From assembly GCF_000507185.2 (NCBI RefSeq), contig NZ_AYTM02000002.1:1201501-1265500 (forward strand): a DNA stretch of 64,000 nucleotides, in the 5' to 3' direction. The position numbers and the translations under genes are program-made. Below the pieces are notes generated by a model. It saw only the letters and a list, made by a program, of their open reading frames with translations. It did no database searches and was not told the origin of the DNA. Of the stretch, positions 21,797-33,013 are shown in pieces. This stretch comes from Pseudomonas syringae KCTC 12500 (GTDB taxonomy: Bacteria; Pseudomonadota; Gammaproteobacteria; Pseudomonadales; Pseudomonadaceae). The stretch's first letter is position 1, and every line of letters starts with the position of its first letter.

Positions 21797-22801
21797 ATGC
21801 CGATCCAACACGCCACTCTTCTGCGCCGCGTAAGCATCCTGACCACGGACAAGATGTTTGCCTCCACTGTCATGCAGGCCAAGGATTTCTTCCATCTCGC
21901 GAGCCTGCGCTACAGCAAGCAACTGGGCCATGGCCTGGTACCCGCCTTCGAAACGCGCCTGGTCAGCCCGGACGGGCTTTCGGTCAGCAGCTTCAGCGAT
22001 GTCACCCTGCCGGTCGACGGCGCGCTCTGCCAGAGCGACATCATCGTCATCCCGGCCTTCTGGGACGATTTTGAAACCCTCTGCCAGCGTTACCCACAGA
22101 TCCTGCCGTGGTTGCGCGAACAGCACGCCAATGGGGCGGTACTCTGCGCCGAAGCCACCGGTGTCTACTGGCTTGCCGAAGCCGGCTTGCTGGACGGCAA
22201 GGAAGCGACGACCTACTGGCGCTTTTTCAGCGCATTCGCCGAGCGCTATCCCAAGGTCCTGCTCAATCAGGAAAAGCACCTGACCGACGCCGACAACGTG
22301 TATTGCGCGGGCGGCACGACCTCGGCCTGCGATCTGTACATTTATCTGATCGAGCGCTTCTGCGGCGCCAATGTCGCCCAGGCCGTCGCCCGCGACATCC
22401 TCTATGAAGTGCGTCGCACCTACTCGCCGGGGCGAATCGGTTTTGGCGGTCAGAAGCTTCATCAGGACGTGGTCATTCTGCAGATCCAGCACTGGCTGGA
22501 AGAGCACTTTGCCGACAAGTTCCGCTTTGAAGACGTGGCCCGTGAGCACGGCATGAGCATTCGCAATTTCATGCGCCGCTTTCAGACCGCCACAGGCGAC
22601 AAGCCGCTGCATTACCTGCAACGGCTGCGGATCGAAACGGCAAAGGGATTGCTGTCGGGGACGCGCAAGAGCATCAAGACCATCAGCTACGAAGTGGGCT
22701 ACGACGACGCCAGCTTCTTTGCCCGACTGTTCCGCCAGCACACCGAGCTGTCACCCAATCAGTATCGGCAACAGTTCGAGGGTCAGAGGGAGAAGCTATA
22801 A
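21797..22801 (+). CDS. GATase1-like/AraC family transcriptional regulator
   Basis: A 334-aa regulator with an N-terminal class I glutamine-amidotransferase/DJ-1-like domain (about 10-190, nucleophile-elbow Cys117 in VLCAEATG) and a C-terminal pair of AraC helix-turn-helices (about 230-328: VAREHGMSIRNFMRRF and ISYEVGYDDASFFARLFRQ). Relatives such as GbdR, ArgR and FtrA sense amines or amino-acid-like compounds in Pseudomonas, but the ligand here cannot be read. The start has a poor Shine-Dalgarno. Its last codons and stop lie inside a heptamer repeat element, so the exact C-terminus may have been set by that insertion. Confidence 0.85.
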   Translation: MPIQHATLLRRVSILTTDKMFASTVMQAKDFFHLASLRYSKQLGHGLVPAFETRLVSPDGLSVSSFSDVTLPVDGALCQSDIIVIPAFWDDFETLCQRYPQILPWLREQHANGAVLCAEATGVYWLAEAGLLDGKEATTYWRFFSAFAERYPKVLLNQEKHLTDADNVYCAGGTTSACDLYIYLIERFCGANVAQAVARDILYEVRRTYSPGRIGFGGQKLHQDVVILQIQHWLEEHFADKFRFEDVAREHGMSIRNFMRRFQTATGDKPLHYLQRLRIETAKGLLSGTRKSIKTISYEVGYDDASFFARLFRQHTELSPNQYRQQFEGQREKL

Positions 22802-22860
22802 GCTGCAAGCTGCAAGAGCCTGGGCTTTTAGCTTGCGGCTTGCAGCTTGAAACTTGCCGC
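22793..22860. repeat. Heptamer-phased inverted repeat element without ORF
   Basis: The left arm has AAGC at 22793, 22800 and 22807 (7-bp period: AAGCTAT, AAGCTGC, AAGCTGC). The right arm is the inverse (GCTTGCGGCTTGCAGCTTG ...). Left and right arms resemble the terminal repeats of the cassette at 28657-29090 (about 20 of 23 positions on the left). It fills the whole gap between the convergent regulator gene and zapE and can fold as a long hairpin, so it probably also acts as a transcription end. Confidence 0.65.
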
Positions 22861-26743: not shown

Positions 26744-28642
26744 TCAGATCGCGCCGCGGCTGCGCAGCAGATCCAGCACCTGCCTGACGCTTTCTTCCAC
26801 GTTGAGTGTCTGCGTGTCGATCACCAGATCGGCATTCAGCGGCACGTCATACGGGAAGGACTCGCCAGGGATATTGTCGCCATCAGCGGCATACAGGCCC
26901 TGCGGATCACGCTCGCGGCAGACCGTTGGCGACGCCTGTACATAGACGGTGAGCAGGCGATCCTTGCCGATCAGCGCCTTGGCGCGCTCACGCCCTTCGG
27001 CATCCGGAGCAACGAATGCGGCCAGGGTCAACAGGCCGGCTTCGTTGAACTGACGCGCCACATGCGCGGCACGGCTCCAGTTCTCGGTACGACCTGCACG
27101 ATCCTGTGGCAAGCCTTTGTTCAGGTCATGACGCAGGTTCTGACCGTCCAGGACATAGACCGCACGGCCCATGTCGAACAGCTTGCGCTCGACCGCATAG
27201 GCCAGCGTGCTTTTGCCCGCGCCGGAAAGGCCGCTGAACAACACAGTGGCCGGTTGCTGACCGAAGCGCTGCGCGCGCTCTTCGGTGGAGACGTGAGCCA
27301 GTTCGCCATGGTGCTGCGAGCCGCCACCTGAAACCGGCTTGGCGATGATCATGCCCGCCGCAACGGTGCCATTGGTCAAACGATCGATGACGATGAACGA
27401 ACCCGTGGTGCGGTTGCTGCTGTAGCCGTCCAGCGCGATGGGCGCATCAAGGCTGACCTTGACGCGGCCGATCTCGTTCAGTTGCAACGAGCTGGCAGGG
27501 CCTTCCTCCAGCGTGTTCACATCGACCCGATGGGTGATGCTGGCAATGGAGCCTGGCACATAGCTGGTGGCGCGCTTGATGTCGTACTTCTTGCCCGGCA
27601 GCATCGGTTCTTCGGCCATCCACACCAGCATGGCATCGAACGCATCGCTGACCTGCGGAACGTTGTCGGCATGCACCAGCAGGTCACCACGGGAAATGTC
27701 GATCTCGTCTTCCATGGTCAGCGTCACCGCCTGACCCGGCCCCGCCTGCTCCAGCTCGCCTTCAAAGGTGACGATGGACTTCACACGGCTGCTCTTGCCC
27801 GACGGCAGCACGACGATCTCGTCGCCCTTGTGCACGATGCCGCTGGCCAGCGTACCAGCGAAACCCCGGAAGTTCAGGTTCGGACGGTTGACGTACTGCA
27901 CCGGGAAACGCAGGTCCGCATAGTTACGGTCGCTGGCGATTTCGACCGTTTCGAGAATTTCCATCAGCGACTGGCCGGTGTACCAGGGCGAACGCTCGCT
28001 CTTGTTCACCACGTTGTCGCCCTTGAGCGCCGACATAGGTACAAAAGCCATGGTGGTCGGCTTGAACGCGATGCCGTCGGCAAACTTCAGGTAATCGGCC
28101 TTGATCGACTCGAAAACGCTTTCATCGAAGCCGTTGAGGTCCATCTTGTTGATGGCGACGACGATATGCTTGATGCCCAGCAGCGAGGCGATATAGCTGT
28201 GACGACGGGTCTGGGTCTGCACGCCGTAGCGGGCGTCCACCAGAATGATCGCCAGGTCACAGGTCGACGCACCGGTGGCCATGTTGCGGGTGTACTGCTC
28301 GTGGCCCGGGGTGTCGGCGATGATGAATTTGCGCTTGGCCGTGGAGAAATAGCGATAAGCGACATCGATAGTGATGCCCTGCTCCCGCTCGGCCTGCAGG
28401 CCATCCACCAGCAACGCCAGATCGACGTCATCACCCGTGGTACCGGACTTCTTCGAGTCACGGGTGATGGCTTCCAGGTGATCCTCGTAGATCATCTTGG
28501 AGTCGTGCAGCAAACGCCCGATCAGCGTGCTCTTGCCGTCATCGACGTTGCCACAGGTAAGAAAACGCAGCATTTCCTTGCGTTCGTGCTGGCCCAGGTA
28601 GGCGAGGATGTCCTCGCTGATCAAATCAGATTGGTGACTCAT
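26744..28642 (-). CDS. cysNC: CysNC: sulfate adenylyltransferase large subunit/APS kinase fusion
   Basis: Bifunctional sulfate activation enzyme: the N-terminal GTPase (CysN) drives ATP sulfurylase with CysD, and the C-terminal APS kinase (CysC) makes PAPS. The 632-aa protein has the EF-Tu-like G1 loop GNVDDGKST (31-39), [15 protein letters not shown] and NKMDL, and a second P-loop GLSGAGKST (about 471-479) for the kinase. The fusion is known in Pseudomonas. The ATG at 28642 has GGAG 10 nt upstream, which lies in the flanking direct repeat of the inserted cassette that separates it from cysD. Confidence 0.95.
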
Positions 28643-28651
28643 AGCGGTTGA

Positions 28652-28656
28652 GCTCC
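28652..28656. repeat. Candidate target-site duplication, left copy
   Basis: GCTCC immediately left of the cassette's inverted repeat; an identical GCTCC follows the right end at 29091-29095. On the coding strand it reads GGAGC and supplies the cysNC Shine-Dalgarno. Confidence 0.55.
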
Positions 28657-28684
28657 AAGCTGTAAGCTTCAAGCGGCAAGCTTG
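28657..28684. repeat. Left terminal inverted repeat, four AAGC heptamers
   Basis: AAGCTGT, AAGCTTC, AAGCGGC and AAGCTTG follow each other with AAGC at 28657, 28664, 28671 and 28678. The 18-bp core AGCTTCAAGCGGCAAGCT (28665-28682) recurs inverted and perfect at 29066-29083; over 25 bp the two ends match at 23 positions. Confidence 0.8.
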
Positions 28685-28695
28685 TCGGCGTACAG

Positions 28696-29037
28696 CTATT
28701 CAGAAATTTTGTTGATCAGCCCGCACAGCATTTTCGAGAGCTCGCGGGTTTCAGTAATCAATGCTGCTGCAACTGCCTCAGGGATATAACCGATTTCACT
28801 GCCGATCATGAGCTGAGTTCTCAGCTCGCCGCACGAGGCTTTCGCAATATACAAAAAGCGACATTTGTCCTTGGCAGTGAATCGCTCCATGCCCTCAGCA
28901 ATATTGCTTGGTACCGACAAACCAGAGCGTGTGATCTGGCTTCTGAAAGCCAGATCAGGGCAAGACGCCGTTTGCCTGTAGAGAATGACCGCCAGCGCCT
29001 TTACTCTTTGCCATACCAAGAGTCTCTCGAAGTCCAT
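28696..29037 (-). CDS. Four-helix-bundle protein, S23/IVS-encoded family
   Basis: A 113-aa protein of the family first known from 23S rRNA intervening sequences. The hallmark [13 protein letters not shown] lies at about residues 40-52, with [14 protein letters not shown] at the N-terminus and four amphipathic helices predicted by eye. The function of the family is unknown; related Avd proteins assist diversity-generating retroelements, but no reverse transcriptase or variable repeat is seen here. AGGGGA lies 5 nt before the ATG. It is co-directional with cysD and cysNC, and its codon use and base composition look less GC-rich than its neighbours, which suggests acquisition. Confidence 0.85.
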
Positions 29038-29065
29038 TTCGATCCCCTGCTTTTAATTTTCTTGT

Positions 29066-29090
29066 AGCTTGCCGCTTGAAGCTAAAAGCT
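29066..29090. repeat. Right terminal inverted repeat of the cassette
   Basis: AGCTTGCCGCTTGAAGCT (29066-29083) is the exact reverse complement of 28665-28682, and AAAAGCT completes the outer heptamer. The right GCTCC direct repeat (29091-29095) directly abuts the cysD stop codon (29096-29098). Confidence 0.8.
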
Positions 29091-29095
29091 GCTCC

Positions 29096-30013
29096 TTAGA
29101 AATAACCCTGACGTTTCTTTTCTTCCATCGAACCAGCGCCGTCATGGTCGATGACCCGGCCCTGGCGTTCGGAAGTTCGCGTCAGCAACATTTCCTGAAT
29201 GATGTCGGTCAGGCTGGTCGCTTCGGACTCGACGGCACCGGTCAGCGGGTAGCAGCCCAGGGTGCGGAAACGGACCTTTTTCTTGACGATGCGCGACTTC
29301 TCTTCATCGGTGAGATGCTCGAGGATGCGCTCGTCGTCGATCATGATCAGCGTGCCGTTCCTCTCGATAACGTCGCGTTCGGCGGCGAAATACAGCGGCA
29401 CGATCGGGATGCCTTCAAGGTAGATGTACTGCCAGATATCCAGCTCGGTCCAGTTGGAGAGCGGGAACACACGGATCGACTCACCTTTGTTGACGTTGCC
29501 GTTGTAGACGTTCCACAACTCGGGACGCTGGTTTTTCGGGTCCCAGCGGTGCTTGCTGTCGCGGAACGAGTAGACGCGTTCCTTGGCCCGGGACTTCTCT
29601 TCGTCGCGTCGGGCACCGCCAAAGGCGGCGTCGAAACCATGCTTGTCGAGCGCCTGCTTCAGGCCCTCGGTCTTCATGATGTCGGTGTGTTTGGCGCTGC
29701 CATGGGTGAACGGGTTGATGCCCTGCGCCACGCCATCGGGGTTGATGTGGGTGATCAGGTCCAGGCCCATTTCCTCGACCATCTGGTCGCGAAAGCGATA
29801 CATCTCCTGGAATTTCCAGCGGGTATCGACGTGCATGACCGGGAATGGCAGTTTACCGGGGAAGAATGCCTTGCGCGCCAGGTGCAGCATCACGGCCGAA
29901 TCTTTGCCGATCGAGTACAGCATCACCGGGTTATCGAACTCGGCGGCGACCTCGCGGATGATGTGGATGCTTTCCGCCTCCAGCTGTTTCAGATGCGTCA
30001 GTTTGTCAACCAT
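29096..30013 (-). CDS. cysD: Sulfate adenylyltransferase subunit 2
   Basis: PP-loop ATP sulfurylase subunit making adenosine 5'-phosphosulfate with the GTPase CysN. The 305-aa product has the SIGKDSAVM pyrophosphate loop (about 34-42), the [22 protein letters not shown] segment and the C-terminal EEKKRQGYF ending typical of the family. It heads the cysD-cysNC operon; in P. aeruginosa the two genes adjoin, but here the S23 cassette lies between them. Confidence 0.96.
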
Positions 30014-31036: not shown

Positions 31037-32197
31037 ATGTTCAAGGCACTGCGTTTTTTCGGCTGGCCATTGCTGGCTGGCGTGCTTATCGCCATGCTGA
31101 TTATTCAGCGCTACCCGCAGTGGGTCGGTCTGCCGAGCCTGGATGTCAATCTGCAACAGGCCCCACAGACCACCAATGTCATGCAAGGTCCGTCTTCCTA
31201 TGCCGACGCGGTCATTGCCGCAGCGCCCGCGGTGGTCAACCTCTATACCACCAAGATGGTCAACAAGGGCAACAACCCGCTTTTCGAAGACCCGCAGTTC
31301 CGACGCTTCTTCGGCGACAACACGCCCAAGCAGAAGCGTATGGAATCGAGCCTCGGTTCTGGCGTGATGATGAGCCCCGAAGGCTACATACTGACCAACA
31401 ACCACGTCACCACCGGCGCGGACCAGATCGTGGTCGCGCTCAAAGACGGCCGCGAAACCATTGCCCGGGTCATCGGCAATGACCCGGAAACCGACCTGGC
31501 GGTGCTCAAGATCGACCTGAAAAACCTGCCGGCGATTACCATCGCGCGCTCTGACAGCATCCGCATCGGCGACGTGGCACTGGCGATCGGCAACCCGTTC
31601 GGGGTCGGCCAGACCGTGACCATGGGCATCATCAGTGCCACCGGGCGCAATCAATTGGGCCTCAATACTTATGAAGACTTCATTCAGACCGATGCGGCCA
31701 TCAATCCGGGTAACTCGGGCGGCGCGCTGGTGGACGCCAGCGGCAATCTGATCGGTATCAATACCGCGATCTTTTCCAAGTCCGGCGGCTCGCAGGGCAT
31801 CGGCTTCGCCATTCCGACCAAGCTGGCTATGGATGTCATGAAGTCGATCATCGAGCATGGTCAGGTCATTCGTGGCTGGCTGGGCATCGAAGTTCAACCT
31901 CTGACTCAGGAACTGGCCGAATCCTTCGGGCTGAAGGATCGTCCAGGTATCGTCGTGGCGGGCATCTTCCGCGACGGACCGGCGCAGAAAGCCGGGCTGC
32001 AACTGGGCGACGTGATCCTGAGCATCAATGGCGAACCTGCCGGCGACGGTCGTCGCTCGATGAACCAGGTGGCGCGCACCAAACCCAAGGACAAGATTGC
32101 GATCGACGTGATGCGTAACGGCAAGGAAATGCGCCTGAGCGCCGAAGTCGGCCTGCGCCCACCGCCCGCCCCAACACCCGTCGCCGCGCCGGAGTGA
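31037..32197 (+). CDS. algW: AlgW/DegS-type periplasmic serine protease
   Basis: Inner-membrane-anchored HtrA protease that senses misfolded outer-membrane proteins and makes the first cut in the anti-sigma factor MucA, releasing AlgU. The 386-aa product has one N-terminal membrane anchor (about 8-24), a trypsin-like domain with His123 (TNNHV), Asp153 (ETDLAVLK) and Ser227 (GNSGGA), and one PDZ domain (about 270-365). A single PDZ and a retained anchor fit AlgW rather than MucD. The proline-rich tail ends 90 bp before a large repeat array. Confidence 0.93.
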   Translation: MFKALRFFGWPLLAGVLIAMLIIQRYPQWVGLPSLDVNLQQAPQTTNVMQGPSSYADAVIAAAPAVVNLYTTKMVNKGNNPLFEDPQFRRFFGDNTPKQKRMESSLGSGVMMSPEGYILTNNHVTTGADQIVVALKDGRETIARVIGNDPETDLAVLKIDLKNLPAITIARSDSIRIGDVALAIGNPFGVGQTVTMGIISATGRNQLGLNTYEDFIQTDAAINPGNSGGALVDASGNLIGINTAIFSKSGGSQGIGFAIPTKLAMDVMKSIIEHGQVIRGWLGIEVQPLTQELAESFGLKDRPGIVVAGIFRDGPAQKAGLQLGDVILSINGEPAGDGRRSMNQVARTKPKDKIAIDVMRNGKEMRLSAEVGLRPPPAPTPVAAPE

Positions 32198-32381
32198 CGC
32201 CAGCACCTGGAAGTGCGGTACAACGCAGATCTGTGACGCCGGGAATAAAAGGTGTCCACGCTTCTGCCCGGAGGGCGTGAGAGCGAGGTGTTTTCGGGCC
32301 ATGTGAAACACTCACATGAAACACTCACACAGGTCGGCTGTGTTTCGAGCCATGCGAATGCCCTGCGGCACTGATGACCTT

Positions 32382-32471
32382 GTGGGAGCGAGCTTGCTCG
32401 CGAAGACGGTGTTTCAGTCGATGCATTTTCGGCGCTTGTGCAGCCCCTTTCGCGAGCAAGCTCGCTCCCAC
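32382..32471. repeat. REPIN copy 1
   Basis: A 90-bp palindrome-flanked unit starting GTGGGAGCGAGCTTGCTCGC and ending with the inverse GCGAGCAAGCTCGCTCCCAC, around a central stretch of about 50 bp. This is the classic doublet of REP sequences abundant in P. syringae and P. fluorescens. The mobilising RAYT transposase is not in this window. Confidence 0.9.
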
Positions 32472-32600
32472 AGGTCCGGGGTGTTTTCGAGCCATGTGAA
32501 ACACTCACACAGGTCCGAGGTGTTTTCGAGCTATGTGGATTACTCACACAGGTCGGCTGTGTTTCGAGCCATGCGAATGCCCTGCGGCACTGATGACCTT

Positions 32601-32690
32601 GTGGGAGCGAGCTTGCTCGCGAAGACGGTGTTTCAGTCGATGCATTTTCGGCGCTTGTGCAGCCCCTTTCGCGAGCAAGCTCGCTCCCAC
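32601..32690. repeat. REPIN copy 2
   Basis: Same 90-bp REPIN, by eye identical to copy 1, in the same orientation and at the same place inside its 141-bp unit, showing it was copied with the unit rather than inserted separately. Confidence 0.9.
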
Positions 32691-32857
32691 AGGGCCGGGG
32701 TGTTTTCAAGCCATGTGAAACACTCACACAGGGCCGTGGTGTTTTCGGGCCATGTGAAACACTCACACAGGTCCGGGGTGTCTTCAAGCTATGTGGATTA
32801 CTCACATAGGTCGGCTGTGTTCGAGCCATGCAAATGCCCTGCGGCAATGATGACCTT

Positions 32858-32947
32858 GTGGGAGTGAGCTTGCTCGCGAAGACGGTGTTTCAGTCGATGC
32901 ATTTTCGGCGCTTGTACAGACCCTTTCGCGAGCAAGCTCGCTCCCAC
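32858..32947. repeat. REPIN copy 3
   Basis: Third 90-bp copy with a few substitutions (GTGGGAGTGAGC at the left end; TGTACAGACC in place of TGTGCAGCCC centrally). It is the most diverged copy and sits in the last 141-bp unit. Confidence 0.9.
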
Positions 32948-33013
32948 AGGTCCGGGGGTGTTTTCGAGCCATGTGGATTACTCACACAGGTCGGCGATGA
33001 GTGACGGCGCAGA

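Follow-up and report, generated by a model that had tools for sequence, protein, structure and literature searches.

Within the analysed window, a 64,000-nucleotide stretch of the genome of Pseudomonas syringae KCTC 12500, the genes cysD (29096-30013, minus strand, an ORF call) and cysNC (26744-28642, minus strand; start set at the ATG of MSHQ, a longer ORF exists) are separated by an element of 434 bp (28657-29090). Its inverted arms, 28658-28682 and 29066-29090, are identical at 23 of 25 positions and share a perfect core of 18 bp (28665-28682 against the inverted 29066-29083), and the pentamer GCTCC stands outside each arm (28652-28656 and 29091-29095). The single ORF between the arms (28696-29037, minus strand) encodes a protein of 113 aa bearing the motif SNIAEG. 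All these features, reported in a preliminary description of the locus, were confirmed on the sequence. In mRNA sense (minus strand), the 5′ arm (29066-29090) lies between the cysD stop codon and the start of the ORF, and the 3′ arm (28658-28682) follows the ORF. The terminal inverted repeats resemble those of MITEs and IS-type transposons, and the complementary ends form a long stem of the type known from rRNA intervening sequences (IVSs). The transcript strand of the element folds well below its shuffled versions (z -5.1; none of 100 shuffles equalled it).

The arms are phased by a heptamer. With at most two mismatches allowed, CAAGCNNCAAGCNNCAAGC was matched nine times in the window, against 0.34 matches expected; four of these matches are in the element arms and five in a second hairpin at 22792-22856. 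The heptamer phase of the element arms is real. The second hairpin (22793-22856, no strand assigned) belongs to the same family, contains no ORF and is located between two convergent genes. A cluster of other perfect inverted 18-mers was also noticed in the window at 32381-32948, overlapping a repeated-peptide ORF (31906-32847); it looks like a REPIN-type cluster, not like heptamer arrays.

The product of the ORF was assigned to the S23 family (23S_rRNA_IVP / four helix bundle) on the basis of its scores of 101.7 bits with PF05635 (cut-off 33.8) and 104.4 bits with TIGR02436 (cut-off 24). Its structure was modelled as a four-helix bundle with a pLDDT of 97.1, and Foldseek matched the model to two S23-family structures, 2gsc (E 1.2e-6) and 2rld (E 1.2e-4), which bears out the earlier identification of an S23/IVS-type gene. 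The same fold is found in Avd of diversity-generating retroelements (PDB 4dwl, 8ube and 8ub7; TM about 0.8, the value for 4dwl included), with an amino acid identity of 16-17%. Avd acts together with a reverse transcriptase and a structured RNA. A Pfam search of the S23 protein returned PF05635 alone and no transposase domain, hence no Y1 tyrosine transposase. The structure described for Xanthomonas S23p is a ring of five subunits (PMC4990558).

Among Pseudomonas-type relatives the median dN/dS of S23 is 0.096 (201 pairs from 64 unique 113-aa ORFs, dS 0.1-1.0). The ORF is under purifying selection, and selection keeps the element. The 3′ arm lies in a strongly conserved stretch of 56 nt that begins at the S23 stop codon; pairwise identity in this stretch is 0.84, versus 0.49 for third codon positions (64 sequences).

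The heptamer arrangement is not peculiar to this locus. Self-match was scored in the best window of 28 nt on each side of 59 S23 loci, of which 14 are Pseudomonas-type cysD loci and the others belong to different lineages. At lag 7 it averaged 19.0 positions upstream and 20.0 downstream, compared with 10.8-13.1 at lags 4-6 and 8-12; this set includes two pairs whose flanks are identical or almost so (L155/L199 and L168/L198) and one locus, L163, in which an upstream run of N raises the self-match at every lag. The framing heptamer varies by lineage: it is CAAGCNN in Pseudomonas, and GTAGGCA, GTAGTGA, GGCAGTT, CCTAGAA and others elsewhere. The two arms of a locus pair with each other more strongly than with the arms of other loci (-58.0 versus -44.5 kcal/mol, p 3.6e-6; 51 loci, after removal of near-duplicates from the 56 of 59 that were usable). 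In 10 of the 51 loci the cognate arms paired less stably than the non-cognate average, and the cognate partner was the best of all in just eight (rows) or nine (columns). Across distant bacteria, arrays of a 7-bp repeat thus flank most S23 genes, as a rule in inverted orientation. The preliminary description of an S23 gene placed in a protein-coding operon between heptamer-phased inverted repeats therefore holds, and it is general to many S23 genes.

The neighbourhoods of these genes are diverse. In loci with a neighbour on both sides, S23 was flanked by two same-strand genes in 24 of 39 cases (crude ORF caller). In a scan of named genomes (best 80 of 150 loci), both cysD and cysN adjoin S23 in 66 loci, cysD alone in one (L166), and 13 loci lie elsewhere; the cysD-cysN site is also occupied outside Pseudomonas (L151, L152, L159 and L196). 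The 24 loci read in the genus of genome G302 (17 of them the best-scoring new ones, from more than 100 listed matches) fall into three recurrent junctions, i.e. nuoC-nuoD (6), acyl-CoA dehydrogenase-mmsB (15) and glutamine synthetase-oxidoreductase (3), with gene names recognized from translations. Other S23 sites (L193, L175, L177, L178, L172 and L185) are next to what we take, from their translations, to be metK-ahcY, gmd-fcl, surE (upstream of it) and gltX (upstream of it). A plasmid search gave 22 records with an S23 match, every one below 60% identity, of which seven, all cyanobacterial, were fetched. Three of these seven loci are annotated within CRISPR operons, in the order cas6-S23-cas4 twice and cmr2-S23-cmr3 once (L401, L402 and L406). 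Lag 7 exceeds all other lags on both sides in five of the seven plasmid loci and on one side in L404, while L406 shows no lag-7 excess on either side; the arms of L402 are direct, not inverted.

The fixed cysD-cysN site in Pseudomonas and in the four loci beyond it, together with the low dN/dS, might suggest that S23 is an ordinary operon gene, e.g. of sulphate assimilation, whose arms serve solely as local regulatory hairpins. We consider this improbable, since similarly armed S23 genes adjoin unrelated genes (nuoCD, mmsB, cas/cmr and sugar epimerases) and this S23 is absent from 220 of the 249 genomes searched in the genus.

The preliminary description had read the element as a non-autonomous transposable cassette that spreads the S23 gene. 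Its inverted arms and the ORF-less relatives elsewhere in the genome are consistent with such a cassette, as are the one to five S23 matches per genome (fragments counted) in the G302 genus. The distribution of the gene argues strongly against it. The S23 gene is present in a single copy in the genome of the window, in contrast to the several gene-bearing copies expected of a MITE or IS-type element, and in all 29 S23-bearing genomes of the genus it is situated between cysD and cysNC. In the G302 genus the 24 loci read, mostly best-scoring ones, are confined to the three recurrent junctions. Distances between S23 genes correlate with those between marker genes (Mantel r 0.74, n=25). Carriage by phages was rejected separately, with no S23 match in 50,697 phage records.

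The cysD-cysN junction was compared in 140 genomes, comprising all 29 with S23 and 111 of the 220 without it, with sampling confined to cysD places among the matches listed. Genomes rich in heptamer matches were taken first from the S23-negative group, so that 26 of the 111 have at least four matches compared with 34 of 220 overall; this bias works against the association described below. An S23 ORF or its broken form occupies 29 junctions, eight have lost the ORF with both ends kept, and the rest are short. One odd short junction, that of G175, was treated as a remnant in the regression (nine remnants, 102 empty sites) and as short in the junction count (eight and 103, respectively).

The preliminary description predicted empty sites carrying a single GCTCC, and none of the 103 empty junctions contains GCTCC or GGAGC. 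Transposition with duplication of GCTCC is therefore rejected, and no conserved duplication was found. In mRNA sense, the copy at 28652-28656 (GGAGC, minus strand) is probably the Shine-Dalgarno sequence of cysN: GGAGC is present near the 3′ end of the junction in 29/29 occupied sites and 8/8 remnants and in 0/103 empty ones. The copy after the cysD stop codon (29091-29095, minus strand) is not a target-site duplication, as the window's own element is the only one of the 29 occupied junctions to have GGAGC at the 5′ end. In the 37 junctions that hold the element or its remnant, the second codon of cysN is always AGY; of the 103 empty junctions, all but that of G175 have TCN there. The 102 other empty junctions are 9-16 bp long. 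Precise excision as the source of the empty sites is unsupported by these lengths and codons. Because occupied and empty alleles differ also at cysN codon 2, they represent two haplotypes rather than an insertion and its precise excision. Spread of S23 as a mobile cassette is, in our judgement, very improbable. What stands of the transposable unit is the dispersal of the ORF-less heptamer hairpin; the gene-bearing unit is not dispersed.

ORF-less arrays of the heptamer were examined at 17 distinct sites in the genome of the window. They are mostly pairs in which a CAAGC arm and a GCTTG arm are separated by a loop, with paired arms recognized in 16 of the 17 sites by eye and in 14 by script; in all 14 sites where the script detected both arms, the CAAGC arm precedes the GCTTG arm. 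The genome thus contains dispersed inverted-pair hairpins, as in REPIN/RAYT systems. Most of the arrays are at or near gene ends (crude ORF calls), and similar places in relatives also carry hairpins. At the site orthologous to 22793-22856, a hairpin is present in five of eight S23-positive and two of 13 S23-negative genomes, and three of the eight S23-positive genomes do not have it. This comparison covers the 21 of 25 examined loci in which both flanks aligned (G019, G002, G006 and G014, with one aligned flank, were dropped), with L367-L371, from other genera, left out.

The number of heptamer-array matches was related to the presence of S23 in the 249 genomes. Matches to a 4-unit pattern, counted as overlapping matches and not as distinct arrays, so that one long array counts several times, had a median of 12 in S23-positive and 0 in S23-negative genomes. 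At least four matches were present in 24/29 versus 34/220 genomes, and at least one in 28/29 versus 86/220. The elements themselves add little to these counts, as just two of the 29 contain the 4-unit pattern, once each. In a phylogenetic regression (PGLS) of 140 genomes, on a marker tree of algW (139 genomes), nif3 (140), hisC (72) and hisD (71), the S23 effect persisted (t 8.2, p 1.8e-13), whereas the nine ORF-deleted remnants were not raised (t -0.6). When each of the 29 S23-positive genomes was paired with its nearest S23-negative relative, it had more matches in 25 pairs, fewer in two and equal numbers in two. The reversed pattern gave 16 matches in seven of the 249 genomes, against 1,686 for the real pattern, and an unrelated REP (forward-strand counts) showed no association with S23 (Mann-Whitney p 0.57, PGLS p 0.82). 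S23 is thus shown to co-occur with heptamer-array matches after phylogenetic correction, which is an association and not causation.

The G302 genus showed the same trend, weaker and less controlled: the median was 10.5 matches in S23-positive and 3 in S23-negative genomes (p 0.0016, ignoring phylogeny and with the arms of S23 itself included in the counts). The reversed pattern was absent from all 99 genomes, and six of the 17 S23-negative genomes had at least four matches.

Several genomes depart from the association. The 34 match-rich S23-negative genomes (at least four matches) reach up to 69, and a second S23 gene was rejected as the cause: a PF05635 search found one in 0/34, the same search being positive in G000 and G112. 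Some S23-positive genomes have zero or one match (G055, in which S23 is broken, G005 and G151). G020 has 57 matches in spite of a premature stop in S23, and G154 and G086, in which it is broken or truncated, have eight and ten. The match-rich genomes without S23, the match-poor ones with it and the match-rich ones with a broken copy, such as G020, are the main results against an action of S23 in trans; they could reflect recent loss or gain of the gene. The match-rich S23-negative genomes might also mean that S23 does not act on the arrays and that the two follow a common third factor, be it lineage, recombination rate or slippage-prone replication. This has a low probability in our view, because the association holds up both under PGLS and in the comparison of nearest relatives, because it concerns this heptamer repeat specifically, and because the ORF-deleted remnants (n=9) show no excess.

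These results suggest that the S23 gene and the heptamer repeats work together. The reading that we favour, and hold to be somewhat probable, is that the S23 gene and the dispersed, lineage-specific heptamer hairpins form a pair comparable to RAYT and REPIN. S23 would be the one selected gene, kept at a fixed intercistronic site and itself framed by repeat arms, and the many ORF-less CAAGCNN hairpins elsewhere, mostly adjoining gene ends, would be its targets. The Avd-like four-helix bundle may bind the heptamer hairpin in its RNA or single-stranded DNA form and may promote copying, growth or retention of the hairpin. We infer this action in trans because of the association between S23 and the arrays.

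A known system that shares several of these features is REPIN/RAYT, in which, as described, a single-copy and largely vertically inherited gene is found beside the repeat, the repeat is dispersed as inverted pairs, and gene and repeat co-occur (PMC3116915). In the genome of the window S23 is likewise a single-copy gene that adjoins the repeat; it is mostly vertically inherited and, across the genus, co-occurs with the repeat, with the exceptions given above. The two systems differ in that the S23 partner is a four-helix bundle in which no transposase domain was found, and its arms are tandem heptamers specific to the lineage. As the partner is no Y1 transposase, the S23/hairpin pair stands outside the RAYT/REPIN family.

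The second system is the 23S rRNA IVS with S23p, as in Coxiella, an element of about 430 nt in which an S23-family ORF is likewise enclosed in a long paired-end stem, with tandem heptamers directly upstream of the S23p ORF (PMC4990558). The Pseudomonas element is located between cysD and cysN, both of its arms are heptamer-phased, its ORF is under purifying selection, and ORF-less hairpins are dispersed in the genome. Rfam gave no hit at the locus or in 20 other S23 loci scanned. An rRNA IVS by position was rejected, since the element lies outside 16S and 23S rRNA genes, even though protein and stem are shared.

The element might nevertheless be the mRNA version of an IVS, i.e. a selfish or tolerated insert whose end stem is cut by RNase III, which would free the S23 mRNA and split the operon transcript, the dispersed arrays being unrelated or secondary. 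The shared protein family, the terminal stem, a length close to that of the Coxiella IVS (434 bp versus 428 nt) and, in Coxiella, the cleavage of the IVS by RNase III in vitro and the position of the heptamers (PMC4990558) argue for it, as do the fold of the transcript strand (z -5.1) and the recurrent intercistronic sites. On its own, this explanation leaves the genome-wide prediction of arrays by S23 unaccounted for, and the S23 protein is under purifying selection; we therefore regard it as unlikely.

The pairing of S23 with the hairpins may extend beyond Pseudomonas. S23 might be the trans-acting partner of heptamer-array hairpins throughout bacteria, an Avd-like pentamer that binds RNA or single-stranded DNA, has no nuclease of its own and, with the help of host (or retroelement) enzymes, grows or spreads hairpins next to stop codons; on this view, an rRNA IVS would simply be a copy that had inserted into rRNA. 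We put this wider proposal forward tentatively, as a possibility short of probable.

S23 proteins have been described from rRNA IVSs as a family with no known function, and the Coxiella report describes heptamers in one IVS (PMC4990558). A separate report deals with intergenic heptamer arrays, for which no maker is known (PMC4679880). These TAACTGA repeats of Beggiatoaceae, cyanobacteria and Bacteroidetes, like the hairpins, form dispersed intergenic arrays of patchy occurrence, which in one species are mostly directly upstream of start codons, but they are direct repeats, in contrast to the paired arms of the S23 system (PMC4679880). The main text of that report does not mention S23, four helix or intervening sequence. 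In the open-access PMC literature (preprints excluded), we found no report tying S23 or four-helix-bundle proteins to dispersed heptamer hairpins, and none describing heptamer-armed S23 genes across bacteria. The present data join the two: the repeat frames the gene, and the gene predicts the repeat genome-wide, so that what S23 does can be put to a direct test. If the favoured pairing is true, it would be a dispersed-repeat system with a non-transposase partner.

Some of the orthologous hairpin sites show additional structure. In L354 (G007) and L363 (G003), long runs of a 6-bp repeat (CAAGAG and AAAGCA, respectively) occupy the loop between the heptamer arms. In L347 (G024) and again L363, the heptamer arms surround an apparent intrinsic terminator, as if added onto a pre-existing hairpin. 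A good system for following gain and loss of the whole element is the G302 genus, in which S23 was found in 82 of 99 genomes (one to five matches each, fragments counted) and the loci at the three junctions are L173-L181, L188, L189 and L372-L388.
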